DNA of 64,000 bases from positions 1-64,000 of the forward strand of contig PLRX01000128.1 in assembly GCA_003164095.1 (NCBI GenBank), read 5' to 3'. A model generated the notes under the pieces. The model ran no database searches, was not told the origin of the DNA, and was given only the letters and a program-made list of their open reading frames with translations. Positions 6,387-45,018 of this stretch are shown piece after piece. Source of the stretch: Acidimicrobiaceae bacterium. GTDB lineage: Bacteria; Actinomycetota; Acidimicrobiia; Acidimicrobiales; RAAP-2. Position 1 is the first letter of the stretch. Every line of letters starts with the position of its first letter. The position numbers and the translations under genes were made by a program.

Positions 6387-7911
6387 ATGTCCGGGGCCCC
6401 TGCCGAGCAGTACCTCACTCGCGCCGTCGTCTTCCCGCTCGACCCCACGCCGGCCCAGGAGCGCCTGCTCCGGTCCTACTGCGGGGCTGCTCGATTCGCC
6501 CACAACTGGGCGCTGGACCTGGTGAACAAGAACCTCACAATGCGTACCGAGCAGCGCGAAGCCGGTGTAACCGAAGCCGACCTCACCCCGTCGCAGTCCT
6601 GGTCGGCCTACTCCTTCGGCAAGGCGTGGAACGCGGCCAAGGAGGAGGCGGCCCCCATGGTGGCAGGAGGTCTCGATGCACGCCTTCCGGTCCGGGGTGG
6701 CAACTGCTGCCGCCGGGCTCGAGAACTTCAGCAACTCTCAGAAGGGCACCCGTAAAGGCCGCACCGTCGGGTTCCCGCGGTTCAAGTCGCGGGACCGAGC
6801 CAAGCCATCGGTCACCTTCACGGAGATCAACCACCAGGAGTCGTGGTTCGAGGACCCCGACGTGCTGGGTGGTCGGACCTCACCCAATGGCCACCGCATC
6901 CGACTGATGCTGCCCCAGAGCACCCCCGACCGGGAGGTGCAACGCCGTCGGGCCAACCTCACCTGGATCCACACCACCGAGTCCACCCGCAGGCTGGCCA
7001 AGAAGGTGGCCTCCGGCACGGGCTCCATCCAGAAGGTCACCGTTTCCTACACCGGTGGGCGCTGGCAGGCCTCGGTGCTGGTGCGGTACCTGGTGCGGCC
7101 TGCGTCCATCCGCTCTACCGGGAGCCGCGGCAGCTCGGGTGAGCTGCAGTCCATTGGCGTCGACGCCGGCATCGCCCACCTGGCCACGCTGTCCCAGCCA
7201 GTCCCTGGCCTCACCGACGAACACGGCCACATCGCCAACCCCCGCGTGCTGGAGAAGCAGCTGGAGAGGCTGGCCGAGCTCGACCGCAAGCTGGCCAGGA
7301 CCCAGGCGCGCTCGAAGAACCGGTCCAAGGTGAAGCGCCGGCGGGCCCGCCTCCATGGGGCCATCACCAAGACCCGGGAGTTGGAGATCCATCGCGTCAC
7401 CAACGCGCTGGCCGACCGGTTCGACGTGGTGGCCATCGAGAACCTCAACGTGGCCGGCATGGCTACGAAGAAGCGGCACCTGGGCCGGGCGTTGGCCGAT
7501 GTGTCGCTGTCCGAGCTGCGGCGCCAGCTCACCTACAAGATGTCCGACCGCGGGACCACCCTGGTGGTGGTCGATCGGTTCTACCCCTCCTCGAAGACCT
7601 GCTCCGCCTGTGGTGCAGTGAGAGCCAAGCTGGACCTGGCTGATCGGGTCTTCGAGTGCAGCACCTGCGGGATGTCCCTCGACCGGGACATCAACGCGGC
7701 CATCAGCATCGAGGCCGAGGGCAGGCGACTGCTCTCGGCGAAGCTGGACACTCTCCAGCCGACACCACCAACGCAACACGTCGCCGGGCTACGACCGGAG
7801 ACGAGAAACGCTGACCCGAGGACAGAGAAGACCGAGGTGCTCATGGGCACACCGGCACTGGCCGCTTGCAGGGCAGAACCACGCAGCCGCGCACTCGTAT
7901 CAGTGCAGTAG
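6387..7911 (+). pseudogene. tnpB: TnpB RNA-guided nuclease, broken by a +1 frameshift
   Basis: Two frames together give a full-length TnpB. The first (from ATG 6387) encodes the N-terminal part (FPLDPTPAQERLLRSYCGAA, FAHNWALDLV); the second (open through 7911) the rest. The switch occurs at a run of five C at 6652-6656; removing one C gives a continuous reading through a Pro-Trp-Trp-Gln-Glu-Val-Ser stretch, as expected for the family. All three RuvC acidic residues are present (GVDAGIAHLA, VVAIENLNVAG, LDRDINAA) and so is the zinc ribbon (CSACG ... CSTCG). TnpB cuts DNA guided by an omega RNA made from the element's right end. Repaired length is about 507 residues, with a C-terminal tail of about 60 residues after the RuvC III motif. 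The frameshift could be real decay or a sequencing error in a homopolymer. Confidence 0.85.
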
Positions 7912-21558: not shown

Positions 21559-23109
21559 TCAGGCCTCGAGCACCGGAGGCCCGTCGCAGCTGGCGTACCG
21601 GCTCCCGTCCGGGCCGGGCCAGCCCCGCCCGGCGAACCGCTCGGCCCAGTCGCCCCGGCCGGTGGCCCGCAGGCGGTCCAGGTACCAGGCCACGTCGATC
21701 CGGCTGTGCCACGGCCCGCCGCCGGTCAGCACCGACCACAGCGGGTCGGTCCCGTGGTGGGAGCGGGCCAGCGCGTCACTCGACCAGTCGGCCAGCACGG
21801 CGAGCGCGTGCTCGACCGCCTCGGGGCGCTCGGCTGCCCGGTCGTGCTGCTCGTAGGGATCGGCCTCCACGTCGAACAGCAGGACGTCGGGGAAGCCGTG
21901 GAAGGCGTCGTGGTAGGTGCGGATGCACAACCAGCGGTCGAACCGGACCGAGCGCTGGGCCGTCCACGCCCCGTGGGACAGGACCAGGTGGTCCCGTCCG
22001 GTCGTTTCGTCCCTTCCGACCGTGTCATTGCGTGCGGCAGGCCCGCCACCGCGCAGGTGGTCGGCGAAGGAACGGCCGTCCCACCGACCGGGCACGTCGC
22101 CGCCGGCCAGGTCGACCAGGGTCGCCCACACGTCGAACTGGTAGTGAAGGCCGGTGTCGACGGTGCCCGGCACCAGGTCGGCGCCTGGCCAGGCGAGGAC
22201 CGCCGGGACCCGGGTGGTGACCTCGTCGGCGGTCTGGTGGTCGCAGTAGATGCCGAGCTCACCGAGGTTCTCGCCGTGGTCGGACGAGACCAGCACGGCG
22301 GTCTCCTCCGTCAGGCCGAGGTCGTCGAGGGTCCCGAGGAGCCGGCCGACCTGGTCGTCGGCGTAGCGCACCCCGGTGTCGTAGCCGTCGTAGATCCGCC
22401 GCACGTCGTCCATCGACGCCGCCTGCAGCGGCTGGCGCGGCCAACGGTCCCACACGTCGCGTGGCCCGAAGCCGGCCAGCTCCTGGGCGGAGTGGGGCCC
22501 GGGGAGCAGCCAGTGGGCCGCACGGACGTCCTCAGTCAACCAGTCCGGCAGTGGCTGCCCGTCGAACGGGTCGCCGAAGGAGGCCGGCGTCCGGTAGGGG
22601 GTGTGGGGGTCCCACAGGTGGACGTGCAGGAACCAGTCGTCGTGCGCGCCTCTGCGGGTCAACCAGTCCTGGGCCATCGTCACCACCTGGTCGGCGGTCT
22701 CGAGCCCCCGGGTGCCGAGGTTCATGCACTCGTTGAACCCGGCGTCGAAGTGGTAGGCGCTGTGCCGCTCGGCGAAGGTACTGATCGACGCCGTCCACAT
22801 CCCGAGGTCGCGCAGGGGGGCCATCCAGCCGTGGGTGGCGGCCTGGGTCCGGAAGCCGCGCCGCGCGCCCTCCGGCTCGGGGTCGGTGGCAGGCCCGCCG
22901 TGGTTGACCGCCCCACTGCGGATGCCGAACTGCCCGGTCGACAGTGCCGTGCGCGACGGCAGGCACGGGGTGTCCGACGCGTGCACCCCGGTGAACCGGA
23001 CGCCCCGGGCGGCGAGCGAGTCGATGACCGGGCTGGTCGGCCGCCGGTAGCCGTAGCAACCGAGATGGTCGGGGCGCAGCGTGTCGATGTCGACGTAGAT
23101 CAGGCGCAC
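21559..23109 (-). CDS. Sulfatase with canonical formylglycine motif
   Basis: A 516-residue alkaline-phosphatase-superfamily enzyme. DIDTLRPDH gives the first metal Asp, and TPCLPSRTAL has Cys49 in the C-x-P-S-R motif that is turned into formylglycine; SSDHGENLGE gives the other metal ligands. No signal peptide is seen, so it is cytoplasmic or exported in an unusual way. It should hydrolyse a sulfate ester, or a phosphonate or phosphodiester. GTG 23109 starts it, 52 bases after the polysaccharide synthase gene on the same strand, which suggests that the substrate is linked to that polymer. It is a paralogue of the sulfatase-HlyD fusion at 25533-28577, whose residue 49 is Thr. Confidence 0.88.
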   Translation of the reverse strand: MRLIYVDIDTLRPDHLGCYGYRRPTSPVIDSLAARGVRFTGVHASDTPCLPSRTALSTGQFGIRSGAVNHGGPATDPEPEGARRGFRTQAATHGWMAPLRDLGMWTASISTFAERHSAYHFDAGFNECMNLGTRGLETADQVVTMAQDWLTRRGAHDDWFLHVHLWDPHTPYRTPASFGDPFDGQPLPDWLTEDVRAAHWLLPGPHSAQELAGFGPRDVWDRWPRQPLQAASMDDVRRIYDGYDTGVRYADDQVGRLLGTLDDLGLTEETAVLVSSDHGENLGELGIYCDHQTADEVTTRVPAVLAWPGADLVPGTVDTGLHYQFDVWATLVDLAGGDVPGRWDGRSFADHLRGGGPAARNDTVGRDETTGRDHLVLSHGAWTAQRSVRFDRWLCIRTYHDAFHGFPDVLLFDVEADPYEQHDRAAERPEAVEHALAVLADWSSDALARSHHGTDPLWSVLTGGGPWHSRIDVAWYLDRLRATGRGDWAERFAGRGWPGPDGSRYASCDGPPVLEA

Positions 23110-23161: not shown

Positions 23162-25111
23162 TCAGTGGATGACCGCCTGGGTGATGACGACCGGTCGCGT
23201 GCCGTGGACCCCGAGGGGCCGGCCGGGCATGCTCAGCCACGCCTCGGTGGCGAACACCATCAGGAACTCGTGCCAGATCGGCCACAACACGACCCACCCT
23301 AGGTGGCGGCCCTGGCGGAAGCCGAGGGTCAGCACGGCCTGGAGCGCCACGAAGACGATCTCGGCCAGGACGTAGCCGCCGAGGAAGATGAGGATGACGT
23401 TGCGGTCGGTGCCCTGGAAGGCGGCGGTGAGCAGCAGGTAGAGGGGCAGCAGGAGGCGGGCCGGGGCGAAGGCCGACTTGACGAACTGCTGGGTCTGGTT
23501 GAACCACACCTTCGGGGTGGCGACGCCGGCCCGGTAGGGGCCGTGGCGGGCCTGGTTGTGGTGGACGGCCCGGCCCCAGCGCACCCGCTGTTCGCGGATC
23601 TCGGCATACGTGGGCGGGACGTCCTCGTAGACGATGATCTCGGTGTCCATCCAACTGCGGTAGCCGAGGCGGCTGGCCCGGAGTGTGAAGTCGCCGTCCT
23701 CGCCGTTCATCCCGACGGTGAACCCGCCCAGCTCCATGGCGATGCTCCGCCGGAACGCGGTGAACACGCCCGGAACGACGTTGACACCGTCCACGGTCTG
23801 GATGGTGAGGTGGTTCAGCCCGAACTGCTTCAGCTCCTCGAACAGCCGCAGGTACGGGAAGACCGTGCGCTGCCGGGCGGCCCGGGGGAAGCACATCGGC
23901 TCGACCAGTCCGATCACGGGGTCCTCGAACCACCGGGGCGTGTAGTGCAGCGACCACTCGCCGACGATGGTGTCGGCATCGATGCGCACGATGAGATCGG
24001 CCCGGGTGAGGGCGAGTGCGGCGTTGAGGGACTCGGACTTGCCGCCGTGGCGGCCGTCGTGGACCTCGCCGGTGGCATGGGTGAACGCGGCCATCGTGGC
24101 CAGCGCCACCTCGCGCGTGCCGTCGGTCGACCCGTCGTTCATGAGGATCACCCGGACCGGGCCCGCGTACCTCGACGCCGCGGTGTCGATGGCGAGGAGG
24201 GTGTCCACGATCACCTCCTCCTCGTTGTACGCGGGGATGATGACGTCGATCGGCGGCTGCACCGCGGCGACGGGCGGGTCGGGCCGGACGGTGACGCCGT
24301 TGACGAGGGCCAGCAGCATGCTGCGGATCACGAACGACCCTTCGGCGAACGGCACCGGCAGTACCAGGGACAGTGCCGGTCGCAGCGCCGGATTCGCCAG
24401 GTGGAAGATCAGCAGGAGCCCGGCCATGCAGATGGCCATGGCGGCCACGGTCACCCCGATGAGTGTTGCGGCGTCCGAGGCCCGGGGCCGCTTGGCGAAG
24501 GGCACCGCGCTCGGCCCCGGCAGCGCGTAGTTGAGGTACTGGGTGCGGGTCATGGCCAGGATGGCCAGGCCGACGGCGACGAAGTTGCCGAGCAGGGTCG
24601 TCGGCGCGATCGGCACGCCGAGCAGCACCTCCACCACCACCAGGGTGGCATCCAGGAACGCCATCACGAAGAGGTAGACCGCCGCCTGGAACGCCACCAG
24701 CAGCCGGCGCACCAGGTTTCCCCGGCCGACGACGGCCAGACACACGATGGTGCCGGCGGTCAGGAACCGCAGGCCGAGCGTGAACCCGGCCAGGTAGCCG
24801 GACACCTCGGCGGGCGAGCGCACGACCGCGCCGCAGATCCGGGCGACGAGGTCGGCGTAGACCGTGTCGGGGTCCCAGCTCCCCCGCAGCCCGTGGTAGC
24901 CGACCATCAGCACCAGGAACAGCGCGCCGAAGGCCGGGACCCGCCAGTACGACGGGAGCTTGGGCTTCGGGAGGAGGACCAGGGCCAGGCCGTCCCCCTG
25001 GTCGTCCGGGTACCGCGTGACGAGCGGGTAGGCGAGGAACGTCAGCAGCACGGCATCAGCGGTGAGTAGGAGCAGGAACGGTCGGAGGCCGGCGAGGAGA
25101 TCGAGGTGCAT
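23162..25111 (-). CDS. Membrane-bound family 2 glycosyltransferase (polysaccharide synthase-like)
   Basis: A 649-residue protein. About seven N-terminal membrane segments precede a cytoplasmic GT2 domain (about residues 285-510) with VIIPAYNEEE, the DxD motif VRIDADT, GEDGDFT, and QRVRWGR (the QxxRW acceptor motif of processive synthases); three or more membrane segments follow. This matches processive beta-glycan synthases such as poly-GlcNAc or cellulose-like synthases. The sulfatase is downstream on the same strand, and the sulfatase-HlyD fusion is divergent, so a sulfated or phospho-modified exopolysaccharide is a reasonable inference. No ribosome binding site is visible; 15-bp repeats lie just upstream. 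Confidence 0.88.
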   Translation of the reverse strand: MHLDLLAGLRPFLLLLTADAVLLTFLAYPLVTRYPDDQGDGLALVLLPKPKLPSYWRVPAFGALFLVLMVGYHGLRGSWDPDTVYADLVARICGAVVRSPAEVSGYLAGFTLGLRFLTAGTIVCLAVVGRGNLVRRLLVAFQAAVYLFVMAFLDATLVVVEVLLGVPIAPTTLLGNFVAVGLAILAMTRTQYLNYALPGPSAVPFAKRPRASDAATLIGVTVAAMAICMAGLLLIFHLANPALRPALSLVLPVPFAEGSFVIRSMLLALVNGVTVRPDPPVAAVQPPIDVIIPAYNEEEVIVDTLLAIDTAASRYAGPVRVILMNDGSTDGTREVALATMAAFTHATGEVHDGRHGGKSESLNAALALTRADLIVRIDADTIVGEWSLHYTPRWFEDPVIGLVEPMCFPRAARQRTVFPYLRLFEELKQFGLNHLTIQTVDGVNVVPGVFTAFRRSIAMELGGFTVGMNGEDGDFTLRASRLGYRSWMDTEIIVYEDVPPTYAEIREQRVRWGRAVHHNQARHGPYRAGVATPKVWFNQTQQFVKSAFAPARLLLPLYLLLTAAFQGTDRNVILIFLGGYVLAEIVFVALQAVLTLGFRQGRHLGWVVLWPIWHEFLMVFATEAWLSMPGRPLGVHGTRPVVITQAVIH

Positions 25112-25301: not shown

Positions 25302-25488
25302 GCCTTTGAGTACGCTAACCGGTGGGGCAGGGTGCGTTGCCGGCGGTCTCCGTCCGTGGGCGCTCCTGCAGAGCGAAGGGCAGGAGCACATGGAGCACGT
25401 GCTGGAATCAGGCCGACCCGGTCGCGGGGTCGGGCCGGTGCCGGGCGGCGCGTCCCGGGAGCCGGAAGCGGTCCGGGTGGCCGCAATG

Positions 25489-25524
25489 TACGGGACGACC
25501 GGAACGTACGGGACGACCGGAACG
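25489..25524. repeat. Two perfect 18-bp tandem repeats
   Basis: TACGGGACGACCGGAACG occurs twice head to tail and ends 8 bases before the chosen ATG of the sulfatase-HlyD gene. It supplies the GGAACGG that could serve as a weak ribosome binding site. Confidence 0.75.
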
Positions 25525-25532
25525 GAATGGTC

Positions 25533-28500
25533 ATGAACCTGATCATCTGCTCCCTCGACACCCTTCGGGCAGACCATCTGAGCTGTCTGGGCAACGGGAG
25601 GGGGCTCACCCCCAATCTCGACCGGATCGCCTCGGAGGGTGCGCTGTTCTCCCAGACGTACGCCACCGACATCCCGACACAGCCGTCACACACGGCGCTG
25701 TTCACCGGCAAGTTCGGCATCAACTCGGGCATCGTGTCCCACTTCCACCCCGCCGCCTACCTGCCGGAGGAGACGCTGTGGCTGCCGTCGATGCTCCGGC
25801 GCAACGGCTACGTGACGGGGGCCGTGGATCACCTCTTCGCCATGAAGGACTGGTTCATCCGCGGCTATGACGACTACATGCCCCCGCCGGGGCGGTCCCG
25901 CTCCCCCGGTTCGGTCATCAACAGCATCGGCCTGCCGTGGGTGAGCGAGCACAAGGAGCAGGACTTCTTCCTGTTCCTCCACTTCTGGGACGCTCACATC
26001 CCCTACGTGCCGCCGACGCCCTACAAGGAGCGCTACTCCCACGGCACCGCCGGGCGCATCGACCCGGACATCACCGCCAAGCTGGAGGGCCGGCCGAGCT
26101 ACCCGCTGTTCAAGCAGAACCTGTACGACTTCCTCGACGCCATGCCCAACCTCGACTACATCGCCGACCTCTACGACGCCGAGGTGGCCTACCTCGACTT
26201 CGAGATCGGCCGGATCTTCCAGCACCTCGAGGCCGAGGGCCTGCTGGAAGACACCATGGTCGTACTGTTCGGTGATCACGGCGAAAACATGACCGAGCAC
26301 GACGCCTGGTTCGACCACGCCGGCCTCTACGACTCGGTGACCCACGTGCCGCTCATCATGTGGGCGCCCGGGCGCATCCCGGCCGTCGAGTCCTCGGCCA
26401 TGGTCACCCTCACCGACGTCATGCCCACGATCCTCGAGGCGATGGACCTGCCCGGGGCGGACGGGATCGATGGCCGGTCGCTGTTCCCCCTGATGCGGGG
26501 CGAGACCGCTGGCCACCGGGACGCGGTGATGCTCAGCGAGGCGACCTGGCAGGCCGCCCGGGGCGTGCGCACACCCGACTGGAAGTACATCAGGTTCCTG
26601 CAGACCACCATCTACGGCCGCGACGGCGTCGAGCTCTACGACCTGGCCGACGATCCCCACGAGCAGGTCAATGTCGCCGACCGCCATCCCGAGGTCGTCG
26701 CCCAGCTCGGCGACCGGCTCAACCACTGGGTCTCGGCGCAGCTGGGCGGCCGACCCGACCCGATGCACTCGGTGCTGGACGCCGGGCTGCCGGCTGTGGC
26801 GAGGCTGAACGACGTCATCGCCGGGCTGACGAGACCCCGCAACGACGTGCCCACACCCACCGAGCCCGGACCGTCGCCGCTGGCGGACCCGGCGGGTGCC
26901 GGTCACGGCCCGGCCGGCGTCGGCGTCATGGCTGCAGGTGCCGTCGTGGGCGCCGGCGTCGGATCCGCCGTGGGCGCGGCCACAAGGGCCACGACCGGTA
27001 CCGCAGCGGACGGGGCGGCAGTCGCCAGCGGTGCGGCCGCAGCAGCCGGGGCTACGGCCGCATCCGACCATCTCGATCCCGGCACAGCAGCGACCCGCCC
27101 GCCGTCCGGGCCCGGCGCAGTCATGACGTCCACGCCGCACGGCGCAGCCCCCACCGCCGCTCCAGGCGCCACTCCAACTGCCGCCCCGGGCACCGTCACC
27201 ACCACAACGGACCCGCCGCCCACCGCGCCCCCGGGCGACGGTGGCAGGTTCGCCCCCCGCAATCCCCACCGCAGCCGCCTGCGGGGCGCCCGGGGCGTGG
27301 TGGTGGGCGCTCTCGTGGTGGGCGCGATGGTCGTGCTCGGCACCGCGGTCAATGATCTGCTGCTGTCGAGTCCCCTGTCGGCGGCCGGCGTCGTCGAACC
27401 CACCGAGGACGCGCAGCTCAACATGCCGACCACGGGCACCGTCAGCGCCATCTCGGTGCACGTGGGTGAGGTGGTGCACGCCGGCCAGGTGCTCGCCACC
27501 CAGGACACATCGGCTGTCGACGCCCGTCTGGCCGCCGACCAGGCCAAACTGACCGCCGACCAGGCCACGCTGGCCCAGGAGCACACAGGCGGGCAGCCCA
27601 CCCAGGTCCAACAGTTGCAGGACCAGGTGGCGGCGGCCCAGACCGCGCTGTCATCGGCCCAGCAGAAGTTCGACGGGTTGACGGCCACCACGGACGCCCA
27701 GGTGTCCGCCGCCCAGGCCAAGATCCGCACCGACCAGACCCTGCTGGTATCCGATCAGCAGGCGTACCAGGACGACATCCCCGAGTGCACGTCGGCCACG
27801 CCGCCGGCCACCTGCGGATCCGACCAGCGCCAGGTCCAGGTGGACCAGGGCAACCTGACCTCCGACCAGGACGCACTGGCGCAGGCCCAGGCCGACCAGC
27901 AGGCGCAGTTGACGACCAGCCAGGCCGGGGTCGCCCAGGCGGCGGCCGCGGTGACCACCGCGCAGGCCACCCTCACCGCCGGCAACGCGCCGGCGACGGC
28001 CGAGCAGGTGGCCGCCACCCAGGCCGCCATCCAGCAGGACGATGCGGCCATCGCCGCCGACCAGGGCAAGATGGCCCAGTCGGTCGTCACCGCACCGTTC
28101 GCCGGCGTGGTGACCGCCATCAACGGGACGGTCGGCGAGGTCGTCTCGAGTCAGGGCGTGCGCCAGGCCACGTCGCCGGCGGCGCTCACCCCGAGCCAGA
28201 CCACCGGCATCCAGATCTTCCCGCAGGGTCCCCAGTCGGGGTCGACGAGTGCGCCAACCTACGCCGCCCTCATCACCCTCGACTCGGCCCGGAACCAGAT
28301 GGTGGTCCAGGTACCCGAGACGTCGATCGGCCAGGTGCACGTCGGCCAGCGGGCCAGCGCCACACTTCCCGCCGTACCCGGCACGACGCTGACCGTCGAG
28401 GTGAGCCAGATCGAGCGCACCCCCGTCACCCAGTCGGGTGAGACGTACTTCCGGGTCGACCTCGTGACCCTGGCCCGGGGCGACCACACCCTCTCCTACA

Positions 28501-28577
28501 CGCCGGACCACACCGATCTGACGTCGGTGCCGACGCCGGGTCAGCTGGCCGGTTTCACCGTCGACGTCTCGTTCTGA
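25533..28577 (+). CDS. Sulfatase-fold enzyme fused to an HlyD-type membrane fusion protein
   Basis: From ATG 25533, 1014 residues in one frame. Residues about 1-430 are a sulfatase/phosphatase domain (ICSLDTLRADH; FGDHGENMTEHD) aligned residue for residue with the sulfatase at 21559-23109, but residue 49 is Thr (IPTQPSHTAL) where that one has Cys, so it cannot form formylglycine; Thr is the nucleophile in related phospho-transferases such as LtaS. Residues about 430-580 are an Ala/Pro/Thr-rich linker, and one membrane segment follows (about 583-606, VVVGALVVGAMVVLG). Residues about 615-1014 are an HlyD/MFP module: lipoyl-like half (TGTVSAISVHVGEVVHAGQVL), long Gln/Ala-rich coiled coil, second half and barrel. 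Both halves would be on opposite sides of the membrane unless the sulfatase is cytoplasmic, as its lack of a signal suggests. I know of no such described fusion. Confidence 0.85.
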   Translation: MNLIICSLDTLRADHLSCLGNGRGLTPNLDRIASEGALFSQTYATDIPTQPSHTALFTGKFGINSGIVSHFHPAAYLPEETLWLPSMLRRNGYVTGAVDHLFAMKDWFIRGYDDYMPPPGRSRSPGSVINSIGLPWVSEHKEQDFFLFLHFWDAHIPYVPPTPYKERYSHGTAGRIDPDITAKLEGRPSYPLFKQNLYDFLDAMPNLDYIADLYDAEVAYLDFEIGRIFQHLEAEGLLEDTMVVLFGDHGENMTEHDAWFDHAGLYDSVTHVPLIMWAPGRIPAVESSAMVTLTDVMPTILEAMDLPGADGIDGRSLFPLMRGETAGHRDAVMLSEATWQAARGVRTPDWKYIRFLQTTIYGRDGVELYDLADDPHEQVNVADRHPEVVAQLGDRLNHWVSAQLGGRPDPMHSVLDAGLPAVARLNDVIAGLTRPRNDVPTPTEPGPSPLADPAGAGHGPAGVGVMAAGAVVGAGVGSAVGAATRATTGTAADGAAVASGAAAAAGATAASDHLDPGTAATRPPSGPGAVMTSTPHGAAPTAAPGATPTAAPGTVTTTTDPPPTAPPGDGGRFAPRNPHRSRLRGARGVVVGALVVGAMVVLGTAVNDLLLSSPLSAAGVVEPTEDAQLNMPTTGTVSAISVHVGEVVHAGQVLATQDTSAVDARLAADQAKLTADQATLAQEHTGGQPTQVQQLQDQVAAAQTALSSAQQKFDGLTATTDAQVSAAQAKIRTDQTLLVSDQQAYQDDIPECTSATPPATCGSDQRQVQVDQGNLTSDQDALAQAQADQQAQLTTSQAGVAQAAAAVTTAQATLTAGNAPATAEQVAATQAAIQQDDAAIAADQGKMAQSVVTAPFAGVVTAINGTVGEVVSSQGVRQATSPAALTPSQTTGIQIFPQGPQSGSTSAPTYAALITLDSARNQMVVQVPETSIGQVHVGQRASATLPAVPGTTLTVEVSQIERTPVTQSGETYFRVDLVTLARGDHTLSYTPDHTDLTSVPTPGQLAGFTVDVSF

Positions 28578-28693: not shown

Positions 28694-29092
28694 ATGCCGG
28701 CCACCGACGATCCGGACCCGCAGCAGCTCTACCACGGCACACGGGCCGACCTGGCGCCGGGAGACCTCATCGAGCCCGGCTATCGCTCGAACTTCGGAAC
28801 CAGGAAGGCGTCGGGCCACGTCTACCTGACCAGCAGCCTGGACACGGCTGCGTGGGGCGCGGAACTGGCGCTCAGCGCCGGGTCCGGCCGGATCTACACA
28901 GTGGAGCCGACCGGCCCGATCATGGCGGACCCCAATCTGACGAAGGACGGGGTGAACCCGACGGAGTCGTACCGCTCGCAGGAGCCCCTGCGGGTCACCG
29001 GCGAGTGCACGGAGTGGCAGGGGCACTCCCCTGAACTGATCACCGCCATGCAGGAGCGGATCGTCGGCCTCGATCCCCTTCCCGGCTCGTAG
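28694..29092 (+). CDS. arr: Rifampin ADP-ribosyltransferase (Arr family)
   Basis: A 132-residue protein with the complete Arr pattern: LYHGTRADLAPGDLIEPGY, VYLTSSLDTAAWGAELA, IYTVEPTGPI and SYRSQEPLRV, in order and spacing like the mycobacterial and integron Arr enzymes (about 140 residues). Arr transfers ADP-ribose from NAD to the C23 hydroxyl of rifampin and inactivates it. The gene has its own ribosome binding site (AAGGAG) and a likely promoter, and it is convergent with the GH26 gene. GC content and codon use match the neighbours, so this looks like a long-resident chromosomal copy and not a recent mobile gene. The natural substrate may differ from rifampin. Confidence 0.95.
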   Translation: MPATDDPDPQQLYHGTRADLAPGDLIEPGYRSNFGTRKASGHVYLTSSLDTAAWGAELALSAGSGRIYTVEPTGPIMADPNLTKDGVNPTESYRSQEPLRVTGECTEWQGHSPELITAMQERIVGLDPLPGS

Positions 29093-29128: not shown

Positions 29129-30208
29129 TCAGCTACCGACGAACGGGAACCCGAAGTAGGGGATCTGGGCGAACGTGGCGAACTGGTCGGCGCCGAGGTC
29201 GCCTGGGACGTCGACCAGGGTCCAGTCCGACGTCGACTTCGAGTCGTAGTAGAGCACCGCCCGCACCTGCGGGAACGAGGCCGGCAGGGCGGTCGCCAGT
29301 GCGGCGAGGTACGGGGCCTGGTCGGTGGTCGCGCCCGTCTCGCCCAGGACCATGGGCTTCCCGTGGGTCACCCAGTAGGCGTAGAACGGCTGGAACTGGG
29401 CGATGGTCTCCGACGGGCTGTGCGTACGGTCGTAGCCGTCCCACCCGATCCAGTCCACGTAGGCGTCACCCGGGTAGTAGGCCGAACCGTAGATCCCTCC
29501 GTTGATGGACGGGCACCAGACGAAGGCCACGTTGGCGGCACCCTCGTTCTGGAAGATCGTCCAGATGTGCTGCCACGCCTCGATGTAGCCGGCAGCCCCG
29601 AGTGAGCCGAGGCACCCGCTGGTGCGGGGCAGGTTCACCAGGTTCATCTCCCAGAACCAGCGCAGGAACACCGGGCGCCCGTAGGCCTTCAGCGAGTCGG
29701 CGTACGAGGTGATCAGGGCATCCTGGCTGCCGTTGATGATCGAGGCGTCCGACGTGCACGTCCAATCGACGAACGGGGTGGCTCCGGTCGCCGCCAGTGC
29801 TGCCAGCGTCGAGGCACGCACGGGCATGGCCCAGGGCTGGTACACGTGGACGAGCCCGAGCGACCGGCCCATGGCCCCGTCGAAGTTCCCCAGCTGCGCC
29901 AGTTCCAGGCGTACGTCGGACTGCGCCTGGTCCTCGTTGACGTGGGGCGCCACGAAGGCGCCGAGGTAGGCGCTGTGCTGGGGCACGGCGGGCTGCGCCA
30001 GCGTGCCCGACGCAGCGGCGTGCGGCACGGGGCCGCCGGGGGCCGCCGTGGCCGCGTCCGTCACCGCACCGGTGGCCGCGGCCAGGGCCACCACCGCCGC
30101 GGCGCCCACCACCAACCGTCGGGCGCGGGCCCGGGCGTTCGACCGGCGGCGGGCGCACCGGGTCGCCCGGTCCGGTCCGTCGTGTGCCTCGAGGTGTGGG
30201 GTGGGCAT
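29129..30208 (-). CDS. Secreted GH26-like glycoside hydrolase
   Basis: A 359-residue protein. An Arg-rich N-terminus and a hydrophobic stretch (LVVGAAAVVALAAATGAV) form a signal peptide, possibly of Tat type. The TIM-barrel catalytic domain has LRWFWEMN (acid/base Glu near residue 186) and VLGETGAT (nucleophile Glu near 291), with WIGWDGYD between, as in GH26 mannanases and lichenases. It should cut a beta-glycan outside the cell. It lies 15 bases downstream of the RCC1-repeat gene, and a second GH26-like gene lies upstream of that, all on the minus strand, so they form one transcription unit or two. Confidence 0.83.
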   Translation of the reverse strand: MPTPHLEAHDGPDRATRCARRRSNARARARRLVVGAAAVVALAAATGAVTDAATAAPGGPVPHAAASGTLAQPAVPQHSAYLGAFVAPHVNEDQAQSDVRLELAQLGNFDGAMGRSLGLVHVYQPWAMPVRASTLAALAATGATPFVDWTCTSDASIINGSQDALITSYADSLKAYGRPVFLRWFWEMNLVNLPRTSGCLGSLGAAGYIEAWQHIWTIFQNEGAANVAFVWCPSINGGIYGSAYYPGDAYVDWIGWDGYDRTHSPSETIAQFQPFYAYWVTHGKPMVLGETGATTDQAPYLAALATALPASFPQVRAVLYYDSKSTSDWTLVDVPGDLGADQFATFAQIPYFGFPFVGS

Positions 30209-40563: not shown

Positions 40564-43500
40564 TCAGGTCGCAATGATCGACGTGCCCGACACGGCGTGC
40601 GTATCGGTGATCGCCCCGGTGCCACCGCTGAACCCGATGAGCACATTCGGGCCGACCGTGACCGCCTGGGTGAGTAGTACGTTCCCGTCCATCATCACGG
40701 TGAGGATGCCATCGTCGAGTGTCACCGTGAACGTGTGGGTCGCCCGCAGACTGGCCACGACATTCGCCGTCGACAGCCAATTGAGCGTGTCGGGCACGGA
40801 CGATGAGACCGGACCGTTGGAGATCCCCACGAAATTGCCCGATGGATACCCCGCGACGAGGTACGTGTCGACACAGACGGCGATGGCCTTGATACCCGAG
40901 AACCCGAGCCCGCCCCCGTAGTAGCCGGTTGCGGTGGGTGCGGTGGACGGGTCCGCTAGCACGAGTGCCATACCGTCTGCGCCCTGGGCGCCACCGCCGC
41001 CGATGGTGGTGGTGAATGTCGCTTTCAGGTCGTCCGAGCTGACCGGCGTCGGCCAGAATGCCGTGCCGCCCTGATAGCCGGGGCTCGTCGTGGTGAGCTG
41101 CGTCGCGCCACCGGACTGCACCGTCGAGCCGTTGAGGTCCCATCCCCCGGCAATCGGATCACCGATGGCCACAGGCACCTCGGGGGCTGCAGTGACCGTG
41201 ACCCCGCTGACTGCATGGGTGTCCGTCAGGGCCCCGGTTCCGCCCGAGAACCCGAGCAGAACGTCGCCGCCGACCGTCACGGCCTTCGAGAAGAGCAGGG
41301 TGCCGTCCATCGTCACGTTGAGCGTTCCGCTGGCGAGCGTCACCGTGAAGGTGTGGGTGGCCCGCAACGACGCAACGGCGGTGTCACTCGCCAGCCAATT
41401 CAGGTCGTCCGGGGCCGACGGTGTGATCGGTCCGTTCGTGACGCCCACGAAGTTGGCCGAGGGATTGACCCCGTTCTGAAACGTGTCGAGCGCCACGGCC
41501 ACGCCCTGGATGCCCGAGAACCCGAGGCCCCCGCCGCTCGCCCCGACCGCGGTCGCCGAGGTCGAGTCGTCGGCCAGCACCAGGGACATCCCGTCGGCAC
41601 CTGATGCACCGCCGGCGCCGATCGCCGTGGTGAAGGTGACCGACAGGTTCGAAGCGCTCAGCGCTGTGGGCCAGAACGCGGTGCCCGCCTGAAACTTCGA
41701 CCCCGCCTGCGTCAGCTGCAGCGTCCCGCCGGAGAGCACCGAGGAACCGTTGAGCGTCCACCCACCGGCCGTCGGGTCGCCGACGATGGCGTCCGTACCG
41801 CCGGCCGAGATCGTGACCCCGCTGACGACCTGCGCGGCCCCGGTCGCCCCGGTGGATCCGGTGAACCCCAGGAGCACGTTGGGCGAGGCCGTGACGGCCC
41901 TGGCGAGCACCTGGGTGCCGTTCACGTAGACAGTCATCACACTCGACGAGAGCGTGACCCGCACGGTAACCGCTGCGTGGAGGTCGGGCACGGCGGTCGA
42001 GGTGGCCAGGAAGTGCAATCGGCTCGGGGCCTTCGGCTGCGTGCCGTTGGAGATCCCGACGAAGTTCTTGGGCGACCCACCGGGCACCCGCACGGTGGAG
42101 AGGACCACGGCGAGGCCTGGTAGACCTCCGAAGCCGAAGTCCAGCGCCTTGCCGCCGACGGCTGTGGGGGACACGGTCGAGCTGGCCAGCACGAGCGCAT
42201 TGCCGTCGCCACTGGATTCCTTCCCGGAAATTGTGGACGTGTAGGTCACGTCGAGACCTGACGAGGCGACAGGCGCAGGGGCGAACGACGACCCCGTCGC
42301 TGACTTGGACGCGGAGGTGAGCTGGAGCGAGCCCCCGGAAAGGGCAGCCGATCCGTTACGTTGCCAGCCTGTGGCGCCCGGGTCGCCGAGCATCCCCGTC
42401 CCCGTGAACTGCACGGTCCGGACTCCCTGGCCGTCGCTCGCCGTGATCACCCAACCGTCAGTGGTGGCCCCGACCTTGGACGGGTCGAACGTGACCGACT
42501 CGGTGAATGACTGACCGGGTTGCATGGTCGTTCCCTCGGGCAGGGTGGTCGTCGCGGTGAAGGGCCCGAGCACCGGTGGCTTGGACTTGGAAATCGTCAA
42601 ATTGCTCCCGCCGGTATTCGTCAACGTGAACGTCTTGATGACCGGCGTCCCGACCAGGGTCGAACCGAAGTTCGTCGACATCGGGGTGATCTGCAGGTTG
42701 GCGGGCGAATCGGAGCTCCCGGTGACGGCCACGTCCACAGTGCCGCCGTTGCTTGCCATGATGACGTTGTCGGTGAAGGTCCCGTTGACGGTGGGCGCGA
42801 AGTCGACGTTCACCACGACCTGTTGCCCGGGTTGCAGGACGGTGCCCGCCGCGGGTGCGCCGGTCACTGAGAACGGGGCGCTCGGCAACGTCACGCTGCT
42901 GATCGTCAACGGTTGGGAGCCGTTGTTGGCGAAGGACACGGATTGCGACGATTCCTGACCCGGTGGTATCCCGCCGAAACTGACACCGAGCGTGGACGAA
43001 GTCAGGTTCGGTCCGGCCACCTGGCCTTCGCCGGTGAGGCTGATGACAGTTGTCCCCTGTCCGCTCGTGTTGATCGTCAGGGAGCCGCCGTCCGCCCCCG
43101 CCTGCGTCGGGGTGAACGTGACGGGCACGGTCATCGTGGAACCGGCCGTGAGGCTGGCCGGCAGGGTCTTGCTCGGGGTGCCGGCGCTGAACGGTCCGGT
43201 CGTCGTGATGGCGGTGATCGTCGCCGTCGACGATGCCGTCAGGGTCACGGTCTGGGTCGATGACTGTCCGACGACGGTCGCAGGAAAGACCGGAACCGGA
43301 GCCGTGACCGGGCTGGACACCGGGGCGCCGAAGCCTTCCACGGCTCCGGTACGGGTGCCCACGTAGATCCGGTTTCCGGCAACTCCCGGCGGGTTGAACT
43401 TGGACGCCGTACCCACCGGAGCACTCCAGACGAGCTGCATCGTGCCGTTGACCGGCACCGGATCGTACGCCCGCAGCTGTGCTCCCACGCCCGTCCCGTC

Positions 43501-45018
43501 GGGTGACCAGACGGTCCACAGGAGTGCCGAGCCGGAGGTGGTGCCATTCGAGGTCACTACCGGAGCTGATGTCCCGAAGCCGAATGCGTCAGCAGACGTA
43601 CCGACGAGGTTGAGCGACGGCTTGCCCGAACCGTCGAGGCCGTACTGGTACGCGTCGAGCAGCCCTTCCGAGCCACCGGCCGACACGGAACCCGAGGCGG
43701 TCGGGATGTAGACATAGCCCCCGTCTCCCGGCCACACAGCGGGGCTCGACCACACGCCGCCATTGGGCCCGTAGCGTGCAAGTACTCCGTCCGTCCCGTT
43801 GGCACCCTGCGCATATCCGCCGAGGTTGTCGCGATTGAGGAGGTAGACGTACCCCTCCTTACCCACCTCGACGGCCAGATGGGGATACGCGGCCGTGCCG
43901 AAATAGGTGCTCGGGAGCGCGATGGGGCTCCCCGAGCCGAAGTCGAGGTCGTTGTCATCGAGGGTGAGTGCGTCATACGGTTCGAAGAAGTCCGTGGCCT
44001 TGAGGGTCCCGTTCGGCTGCACGGCCACTCGGGCCACCGACTCGGCGAGATTGGCCGGAGGTGTCTTGCCGGGAGTGGGGGTCGTGTTGGTCCCACCGTT
44101 GCCGGTGGCGAACATGATCTGGCCCGAGCCGTCGGACACCAGCCCGCCGCCGGACATCCAGATGCCGGCTCCGTTGGCGCCGGTCGTGGCGTCAGTCGTG
44201 AACATCGTCGTCAGCGCGCCCGCCTCGGAGACACCGGCGATCCAGCCCGTCCACGGCGGCTCGTCGCAGTGGGCGCCGAAGGCCGCGTAGACCACGCCGT
44301 TCATGAGCAGCAGGCCCGGGCGCTGGAGCTCGTAGGTCGGATTGAAGGTGAACGAGGAATTGTTCTGTGCGGTTCCCGCGATCTGGACGGGGAACCCGGG
44401 CTCCTCGGCCCCGTTGGCCGCCAGGTTCAGCGCATGCATGTAGTCGGCCTGGGGACCGGAATCGCCCGAGATGTACTCGTCGTCCACCAGGTACTCAGTG
44501 TTCGTGGCCTGGTCGACCACCGGCGTCCCGGTGATGCCCATGGTCGGGGCGAGGTCGGCACAGCCGATCGCGCTGGCCAGCGGAGGCGACCCGAACTGTC
44601 GCGTCCACAGGATCGCACCCGACACCGGGTCGAGTCCGTAGGCGTAGTTGTTCTCCGTGTCGACCAGTAGCTGGCCGTCGTCCACGAGTGGTTGGCCATA
44701 GACCGCACCGTTGACGCTGGTATCGAACAGCTGTCCGAACGTGCCCCCGGACACCAGGGCGGGACTGAGGTTCGTCTCGTCGGGATACCAACCGGTCCGC
44801 TCGTTGTCACCGTCGCGGGTGGCCGCGGTCGGCTCACTCGTCGCGGCGGTCAGCGTGGCGTTGTGCCGCAGGTCGTGCAGCGCCACATGGTTGCCGGCGG
44901 CTCCCGTCGTCGCCACGGCCACGACCGACGTCGCAGCGATGACGCAGGCGCCGATCCGAAGGAACCGTCCCACCGGGCCGGGCGTGGCCCGCCCTCCACC
45001 CATCATCCGTCGGCCCAT
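40564..45018 (-). CDS. Giant secreted protein: PQQ-like propeller, three ASH-type Ig domains, three lectin repeats
   Basis: A 1484-residue protein with a signal peptide (IGACVIAATSVVAVATTGAAG). Residues about 70-560 form a PQQ-like beta-propeller (YGQPLVDDGQLLVDTENNYA, YGLDPVSGAILWTRQF). Residues about 565-870 are three ASPM-SPD-2-Hydin/choice-of-anchor-D domains (VSFANNGSQPLTISSVTL). Residues about 874-1484 are three repeats of about 206 residues, each starting GDP-x-A-x-GW-x-x-NGS and containing GADGM-x-LVLAD, as in legume-type lectin folds. It probably binds sugars at the cell surface. Repeats 2 and 3 are closest, pointing to recent duplication. It lies 157 bases downstream of the polysaccharide operon and may be read with it. 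Confidence 0.82.
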   Translation of the reverse strand: MGRRMMGGGRATPGPVGRFLRIGACVIAATSVVAVATTGAAGNHVALHDLRHNATLTAATSEPTAATRDGDNERTGWYPDETNLSPALVSGGTFGQLFDTSVNGAVYGQPLVDDGQLLVDTENNYAYGLDPVSGAILWTRQFGSPPLASAIGCADLAPTMGITGTPVVDQATNTEYLVDDEYISGDSGPQADYMHALNLAANGAEEPGFPVQIAGTAQNNSSFTFNPTYELQRPGLLLMNGVVYAAFGAHCDEPPWTGWIAGVSEAGALTTMFTTDATTGANGAGIWMSGGGLVSDGSGQIMFATGNGGTNTTPTPGKTPPANLAESVARVAVQPNGTLKATDFFEPYDALTLDDNDLDFGSGSPIALPSTYFGTAAYPHLAVEVGKEGYVYLLNRDNLGGYAQGANGTDGVLARYGPNGGVWSSPAVWPGDGGYVYIPTASGSVSAGGSEGLLDAYQYGLDGSGKPSLNLVGTSADAFGFGTSAPVVTSNGTTSGSALLWTVWSPDGTGVGAQLRAYDPVPVNGTMQLVWSAPVGTASKFNPPGVAGNRIYVGTRTGAVEGFGAPVSSPVTAPVPVFPATVVGQSSTQTVTLTASSTATITAITTTGPFSAGTPSKTLPASLTAGSTMTVPVTFTPTQAGADGGSLTINTSGQGTTVISLTGEGQVAGPNLTSSTLGVSFGGIPPGQESSQSVSFANNGSQPLTISSVTLPSAPFSVTGAPAAGTVLQPGQQVVVNVDFAPTVNGTFTDNVIMASNGGTVDVAVTGSSDSPANLQITPMSTNFGSTLVGTPVIKTFTLTNTGGSNLTISKSKPPVLGPFTATTTLPEGTTMQPGQSFTESVTFDPSKVGATTDGWVITASDGQGVRTVQFTGTGMLGDPGATGWQRNGSAALSGGSLQLTSASKSATGSSFAPAPVASSGLDVTYTSTISGKESSGDGNALVLASSTVSPTAVGGKALDFGFGGLPGLAVVLSTVRVPGGSPKNFVGISNGTQPKAPSRLHFLATSTAVPDLHAAVTVRVTLSSSVMTVYVNGTQVLARAVTASPNVLLGFTGSTGATGAAQVVSGVTISAGGTDAIVGDPTAGGWTLNGSSVLSGGTLQLTQAGSKFQAGTAFWPTALSASNLSVTFTTAIGAGGASGADGMSLVLADDSTSATAVGASGGGLGFSGIQGVAVALDTFQNGVNPSANFVGVTNGPITPSAPDDLNWLASDTAVASLRATHTFTVTLASGTLNVTMDGTLLFSKAVTVGGDVLLGFSGGTGALTDTHAVSGVTVTAAPEVPVAIGDPIAGGWDLNGSTVQSGGATQLTTTSPGYQGGTAFWPTPVSSDDLKATFTTTIGGGGAQGADGMALVLADPSTAPTATGYYGGGLGFSGIKAIAVCVDTYLVAGYPSGNFVGISNGPVSSSVPDTLNWLSTANVVASLRATHTFTVTLDDGILTVMMDGNVLLTQAVTVGPNVLIGFSGGTGAITDTHAVSGTSIIAT

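Follow-up and report, generated by a model that had tools for sequence, protein, structure and literature searches.

The window analysed here, a stretch of 64,000 nucleotides, encodes a single protein in which a sulfatase-fold enzyme is fused to an HlyD-type membrane fusion module, and this fusion is real. We give a slightly better than even chance to the reading in which it is an adaptor of the neighbouring GT2 synthase, with its HlyD part likely outside, its enzyme likely inside, and a phosphate rather than a sulfate ester being transferred or cleaved.

Results

Domain organisation of the fusion protein

The gene and its parts are the following.

25533 to 28577, plus strand: fusion gene, 1014 aa, an open frame that is likewise fused in 5 further genomes of the genus
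25533 to 26822, plus strand: sulfatase-fold (alkaline phosphatase superfamily) domain, residues 1-430, predicted cytosolic
25677 to 25679, plus strand: Thr49, at the position of the catalytic formylglycine cysteine of sulfatases (motif T-Q-P-S-H), aligned with C84 of the iota-carrageenan sulfatase 6pt4
26823 to 27290, plus strand: low-complexity linker, residues 431-586, rich in A, P and G, disordered in the model, 41-172 residues across 68 aligned rows
27294 to 27350, plus strand: single transmembrane helix, about residues 588-606 by hydropathy (model helix 587-601)
27378 to 28571, plus strand: HlyD-type membrane fusion module, residues 616-1013, predicted extracytoplasmic (Pfam HlyD_3, NCBIfam, model)
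27510 to 28076, plus strand: HlyD-module helical hairpin, residues 660-848, whose two long helices flank Cys752 and Cys761 (model)

The preliminary description of this DNA had proposed one protein made of a sulfatase-fold domain, a linker, one membrane helix and an HlyD module, and both the Pfam search and the AlphaFold model bear this out. Pfam Sulfatase covers residues 2-305 with 150 bits (cut-off 25), SGSH_C residues 258-398 with 63.1 bits (cut-off 29.3) and HlyD_3 residues 918-977 with 25.3 bits (cut-off 22.2); the N-terminal domain thus has the sulfatase fold that is expected of S1 sulfatases. Matches under their cut-offs are Biotin_lipoyl_2 at residues 628-656 (24.1 bits, cut-off 29.8), HlyD_D23 at residues 923-963 (22.2 bits, cut-off 30) and, for the HlyD module, the NCBIfam entries RND_mfp (56.2 bits) and type_I_hlyD (41.6 bits). 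Compared by sequence with PDB chains, the HlyD part gave no match at E 0.1. Pfam and the model reveal the lipoyl part, the helical hairpin and the beta-barrel, placed after one helix, that define HlyD or membrane fusion proteins.

The full-length AlphaFold model, computed from the 68-row alignment (mean pLDDT 71.4, pTM 0.50), displays the sulfatase fold, disorder at 431-584, a helix at 587-601 and a module of strand, long helical hairpin and strand at 616-1013. Residues 47-49 and 254-268 have pLDDT below 50 in this model, with ten-residue means of at least 90 in the domain model of residues 1-433. The latter reaches a pLDDT of 95.1, and its listed fold matches are sulfatases and phosphonate monoester hydrolases. 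An ATG at 25527, two codons upstream, is a possible alternative start of the gene. Directly 5' of the start codon, at 25488-25523, an 18-base unit (gtacgggacgaccggaac) was seen by eye to occur twice in tandem.

Recurrence of the fusion

In a survey of the genus, the sulfatase-fold domain was found at E 1e-60 or better in 6 of 14 genomes, the window's included, and it was fused in all six; at one of the 5 other loci (L012) the contig stops within the HlyD part. A protein search, of whose 1349 matches the best 120 were listed, separated a top group of 78 scoring at least 570 bits from the next match at 297 bits. The nucleophile motif is present in 69 of these 78, the other 9 starting downstream of it. 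The alignment used throughout consists of the window protein and 67 of the 78, leaving out the 9 late starters, P0001 (the window's own protein) and P0049 (which has no helix).

The fused plan is present in 5 other genomes of the genus and in 67 aligned relatives, and because these share it, the fusion is not an assembly error. The rival view, that an error of assembly or frame joins two genes within the low-complexity linker, draws on a fading codon signal: third-position GC is high along the gene, and its contrast with the other positions is gone in residues 451-550, within the linker. The existence of separate forms of the domain would also suit it. Against it, the join across the linker recurs in the other assemblies, and the 68 aligned rows carry it with differing linkers; we reject the artefact, whose chance we regard as negligible, on the same fusion being seen in six genomes. 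The preliminary description had also held that homologues encoded always as separate genes would speak against a fused protein, and in fact both fused and separate forms occur.

The fused locus and its GT2 synthase

The conserved neighbours of the fusion gene are listed below.

21559 to 23109, minus strand: second sulfatase-fold protein, 516 aa, no evident signal peptide, classical C-L-P-S-R formylglycine motif (Pfam Sulfatase, 118 bits)
23162 to 25111, minus strand: processive-type GT2 synthase, 649 aa, divergent neighbour (Pfam Glyco_tranf_2_3)
29129 to 30208, minus strand: GH26-like protein (glycosyl hydrolase family 26; Pfam GH26 24.3 bits, cut-off 20.2), at L009, L010, L011 and L013
30224 to 32836, minus strand: RCC1-repeat protein (Pfam RCC1), at L010, L011 and L013
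32923 to 34206, minus strand: second GH26-like protein (Pfam GH26 17.4 bits, under the cut-off of 20.2), at L010, L011 and L013

The order is thus the second sulfatase-fold gene, the GT2 gene, the divergent fusion, and then the two GH26-like genes and the RCC1-repeat gene; the L012 contig stops short of the position of the GH26-like gene. The GT2 neighbour contains DGST, DADT, GEDGD and QRVRW motifs and, to either side of them, hydrophobic helices, which correspond to the D, D, ED and Q-x-x-R-W signature and the membrane helices of processive GT2 enzymes. It adjoins the fusion in 6 of 6 loci, all of them in the genus, fused members outside the genus being known as proteins alone. Moreover, of 21 genomes (the window's and 20 relatives), the same 6 contain both a close GT2 (E reported as 0) and the HlyD part (E below 1e-78), with just distant matches or none for either in the remaining 15. 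The partnership with a GT2 synthase gene that had been proposed for the HlyD module and the sulfatase-fold domain is supported by this adjacency and co-occurrence.

The second sulfatase-fold gene has a 72-75% relative in 4 of the 5 other fused loci and is absent there in L013, and a 56% identical relative flanks the unfused gene in L105. Elsewhere in the window's genome (C24) a protein matches the formylglycine-generating-enzyme family with 108.7 bits. Three further genes of the window were observed: a short one at 28694-29092 (plus strand) that separates the fusion from the GH26-like gene and has a 125-bit match to rifampin ADP-ribosyltransferase (Arr-ms); one at 40564-45018 (minus strand) for a 1484-residue protein with HYDIN/Cep192-type Ig-like and legume-lectin-like domains; and two overlapping frames at 6387-7911 (plus strand), the N-terminus of which resembles, by eye, a TnpB-type transposon protein.

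Catalytic position and likely chemistry

The motif of sulfatases is C/S-x-P-x-R, and since the fusion reads T-Q-P-S-H at this position, sulfate chemistry is unlikely. Phosphonate monoester hydrolases are recognised by a formylglycine cysteine together with Asp, Asp and His metal ligands; the fusion keeps Asp9, Asp248 and His249 and has a threonine at the cysteine position. Formylglycine sulfatases and phosphonate monoester hydrolases are the nearest solved structures by sequence and fold among the matches listed, which weighs against the adaptor reading favoured here. The fusion enzyme shares the fold of these S1 sulfatases and hydrolases (6hr5, 4upl, 2vqr), and we take its Asp and Asp/His metal-ligand positions to be equivalent to theirs, whereas it differs in having threonine for the formylglycine cysteine and histidine for the arginine of C-x-P-x-R.

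In sulfatases the cysteine or serine of the C/S-x-P-x-R motif is converted into formylglycine. According to the available text of PMC11677397, sulfatases depend on a formylglycine, and the ENPP phosphodiesterases use a threonine nucleophile. A threonine is likewise described as the nucleophile of LtaS/EptA-type enzymes (PMC7576196, in part), and Thr49 corresponds to it by sequence position. Phosphoester chemistry therefore suggests itself for the fusion enzyme, whose likely substrate class is phosphate and not sulfate esters. Of the modifications envisaged earlier (sulfate, phosphate or phospho-glycerol), sulfate is unlikely in view of T-Q-P-S-H, with Thr49 in 68 of 68 rows, and a phosphate ester is retained as likely. 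The LtaS/EptA fold does not appear among the 50 structure matches listed, an absence that is compatible with likeness, and the NCBIfam matches of the fusion to YejM (27.9 bits, cut-off 825) and LtaS (23.8 bits, cut-off 970) are weak.

The domain could instead be a catalytically dead sulfatase fold that, on the cytosolic side, binds or senses something on behalf of the synthase, much as PilZ does in Alg44. It does occupy the place of PilZ in the Alg44 plan, and the formylglycine residue is missing. We nonetheless consider this unlikely, given how strictly the site is kept: Thr49, His53, Asp248 and His249 are found in all 68 fused rows and Asp9 in 67, with one gap, and Thr49 is invariant in the wider alignment as well (91 of 91 rows). 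The invariance of Thr49, Asp248 and His249 suggests catalysis. Among 118 shorter relatives, T-Q-P-S-H is present in 112, and one of the 6 that depart from it is cut short. The automatic annotation of JGI calls a group of these threonine-type proteins arylsulfatase, though the sulfatase residue is missing, and its names for some homologues already give both domains; our analysis supplies a gene context for them.

Membrane topology

No signal peptide or N-terminal helix is evident before the enzyme, by eye and hydropathy, either among the 69 rows of the fused search that extend to the motif or among the 118 shorter relatives, some rows starting late; the enzyme domain begins at its own first beta strand. 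Furthermore, the 15 residues before the membrane helix are more positive than the 15 after it in 68 of 68 rows, with a mean net charge of +5.0 versus -1.1. The enzyme is therefore predicted to be cytosolic and the HlyD module to lie outside the membrane. The cysteine pair of the hairpin (Cys752, Cys761), present in 59 of the 62 rows that cover these positions, is consistent with this module lying outside, in an oxidising environment. As a marker of synthase-linked HlyD proteins the pair was rejected, as it also occurs in HlyD genes with no GT2 in the locus; in the scan, the GT2-linked L058 and L079 have no such pair, and the L087 copy of the L058 gene has two cysteines further along.

This topology bears on the first interpretation of the fusion, in which a sulfatase or phospho-transferase modifies the exported polymer outside the cell, coupled to export. 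In its favour, BcsG modifies polymers or lipids outside the cytosol, and the locus also encodes GH26-like proteins. LtaS and EptA too are described as acting on polymers or lipids outside the cytosol (PMC7576196, in part). YejM, LtaS and EptA share with the fusion enzyme the superfamily and the threonine nucleophile position. The same source, as far as available, gives YejM helices followed by a periplasmic domain and LtaS an extracellular domain. In the fusion, by contrast, the enzyme comes first, with no helices before it as there would be in an LtaS/EptA-type protein. Together with the positive enzyme side of the helix and the absent formylglycine residue, this makes external modification highly improbable. 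The coupling of polymer modification to export is accordingly not sustained: the enzyme is predicted to be cytosolic, and the polymer would exit via the synthase.

Comparison with known synthase systems and proposed role

Acidimicrobiaceae and Acidimicrobiales, to which the named relatives belong, are presumably single-membrane bacteria, so that an outer-membrane partner, unlike in the setting of Alg44, would be absent. The available text of PMC3815931 describes Alg44 as a cytosolic PilZ domain, a membrane region and an external membrane-fusion module, with the GT2 polymerase Alg8 as its partner. The fusion has the same succession of cytosolic domain, one membrane region and external fusion module, in its case as a predicted topology, and a GT2 partner. 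It differs in that Alg44 has its own c-di-GMP-binding PilZ domain, whereas the fusion carries a sulfatase-fold enzyme on a linker of 41-172 residues; neither the fusion nor the GT2 protein has a PilZ match at E 0.01 (Pfam). The cyanobacterial cellulose synthase XcsA/XcsB/XcsC also unites a GT2, an HlyD-like protein and a glycoside hydrolase, in one operon in some species (PMC12430437, in part). In the part of that article available, XcsA has a PilZ domain and XcsB is described as HlyD-like only, without an enzyme domain; the hydrolases of the fused locus are GH26-like. Searches of the open-licence PMC library turned up no paper on a sulfatase-HlyD protein of this plan.

As its parts and their order match Alg44 with an enzyme for PilZ, we read the fusion as a synthase adaptor with a built-in cytosolic enzyme; by this analogy, a predicted phosphoester-handling enzyme would sit in the PilZ position of an Alg44-like protein. 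The HlyD module may contact the synthase, much as a bridge from the polymerase has been proposed for Alg44, and the flexible linker would give the enzyme access to the synthase's cytosolic face or to the inner leaflet. With Asp9, Asp248 and His249 binding a metal, the enzyme could go through a phospho-threonine intermediate and pass the phospho group on to an acceptor or to water. With the enzyme predicted inside and a phosphate ester likely, it would act on polymer supply or control, not on the finished chain; the most likely purpose would be to act on a precursor, a primer or a small-molecule regulator at the site of synthesis. A more specific proposal, which we offer tentatively and with some doubt, is that a cytosolic threonine-type phospho-transferase, repeatedly fused to HlyD, stands in place of a c-di-GMP receptor and, at the mouth of the synthase, either primes or phospho-decorates the precursor of the chain or clears a regulatory phosphodiester. 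A natural Alg44-like adaptor with an enzyme as its cytosolic domain, in fused and separate forms, would give a direct handle on the relay of signals by Alg44. How Alg44 relays its signal to the GT2 polymerase is described as unclear in the available text of PMC3815931.

Separate forms and evolution

At E 1e-60 or better the sulfatase-fold domain is rare in the order, with at least 2 of 248 and at least 6 of 397 sampled genomes (overlapping samples); the wide genome searches scored the best few candidates per genome, and the counts are lower bounds. One other family of the order has the domain in 5 of 32 genomes. In 4 of these 5 it is unfused and 60-62% identical, and all 4 loci have an HlyD gene in the same cluster; two of them also contain a GT2 gene. 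These two, L086 and L107, have the one-strand order HlyD, GT2, GH26-like, sulfatase-fold, so that two genes separate the HlyD gene from the sulfatase-fold gene. At L105 the sulfatase-fold gene lies 18 bases upstream of the HlyD gene, in the same order as in the fusion, and the relative of the window's second sulfatase-fold gene is on its opposite flank; no GT2 is visible in this locus, which ends with its contig inside that HlyD gene. At L106 there is no GT2 at E 1e-3, though the contig continues, and an HlyD gene of a second type adjoins the sulfatase-fold gene. This type, which lacks cysteine and has an extended proline-rich tail at its N-terminus, was found at L086 (9694-10923), L106 (10107-11228) and L107 (14623-15858). 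G270, the fifth genome, contains two genes of 36-37% identity, with no HlyD, GT2 or GH26 match in the locus. Other unfused relatives, P0122-P0130, are 83-86% identical.

Unfused relatives of the HlyD module were examined in 13 loci, a subset of those listed by two genome searches (9 and 4 loci), and a GT2 gene stands beside the HlyD gene in 7. The other 6 show no GT2; in 5 of them the HlyD gene is followed by a gene pair that resembles, by eye from length and helices, an ABC exporter, and in the sixth the contig breaks off. Of 35 short loci surrounding HlyD matches from the relatives and from the order, 8 contain a GT2 match (E 1e-10), a lower bound as these loci span 2-4 kb; HlyD relatives thus often have other partners. 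Such loci would suit a view in which an ABC-type exporter is the partner of the HlyD module and the enzyme is a general scavenger, with only the locus in common with the synthase. We judge this decidedly unlikely, however, for a GT2 gene adjoins the fusion in every fused locus and the HlyD gene in those 7 of 13, and no ABC family match was found at E 0.01 in the 6 neighbouring proteins scanned alongside the fusion.

A tree of the sulfatase-fold domain was built from 192 rows, reduced to 183 leaves by removing 5 outgroups and 4 ambiguous chains; 68 leaves are fused. It requires at least 11 changes between fused and separate forms, compared with a mean of 55 for 200 label shuffles. The figure of 11 may be too high, because contig ends may have truncated some of the proteins scored as separate. 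The firmest separate case is a clade of 10 separate proteins (support 0.995) nested among the fused ones.
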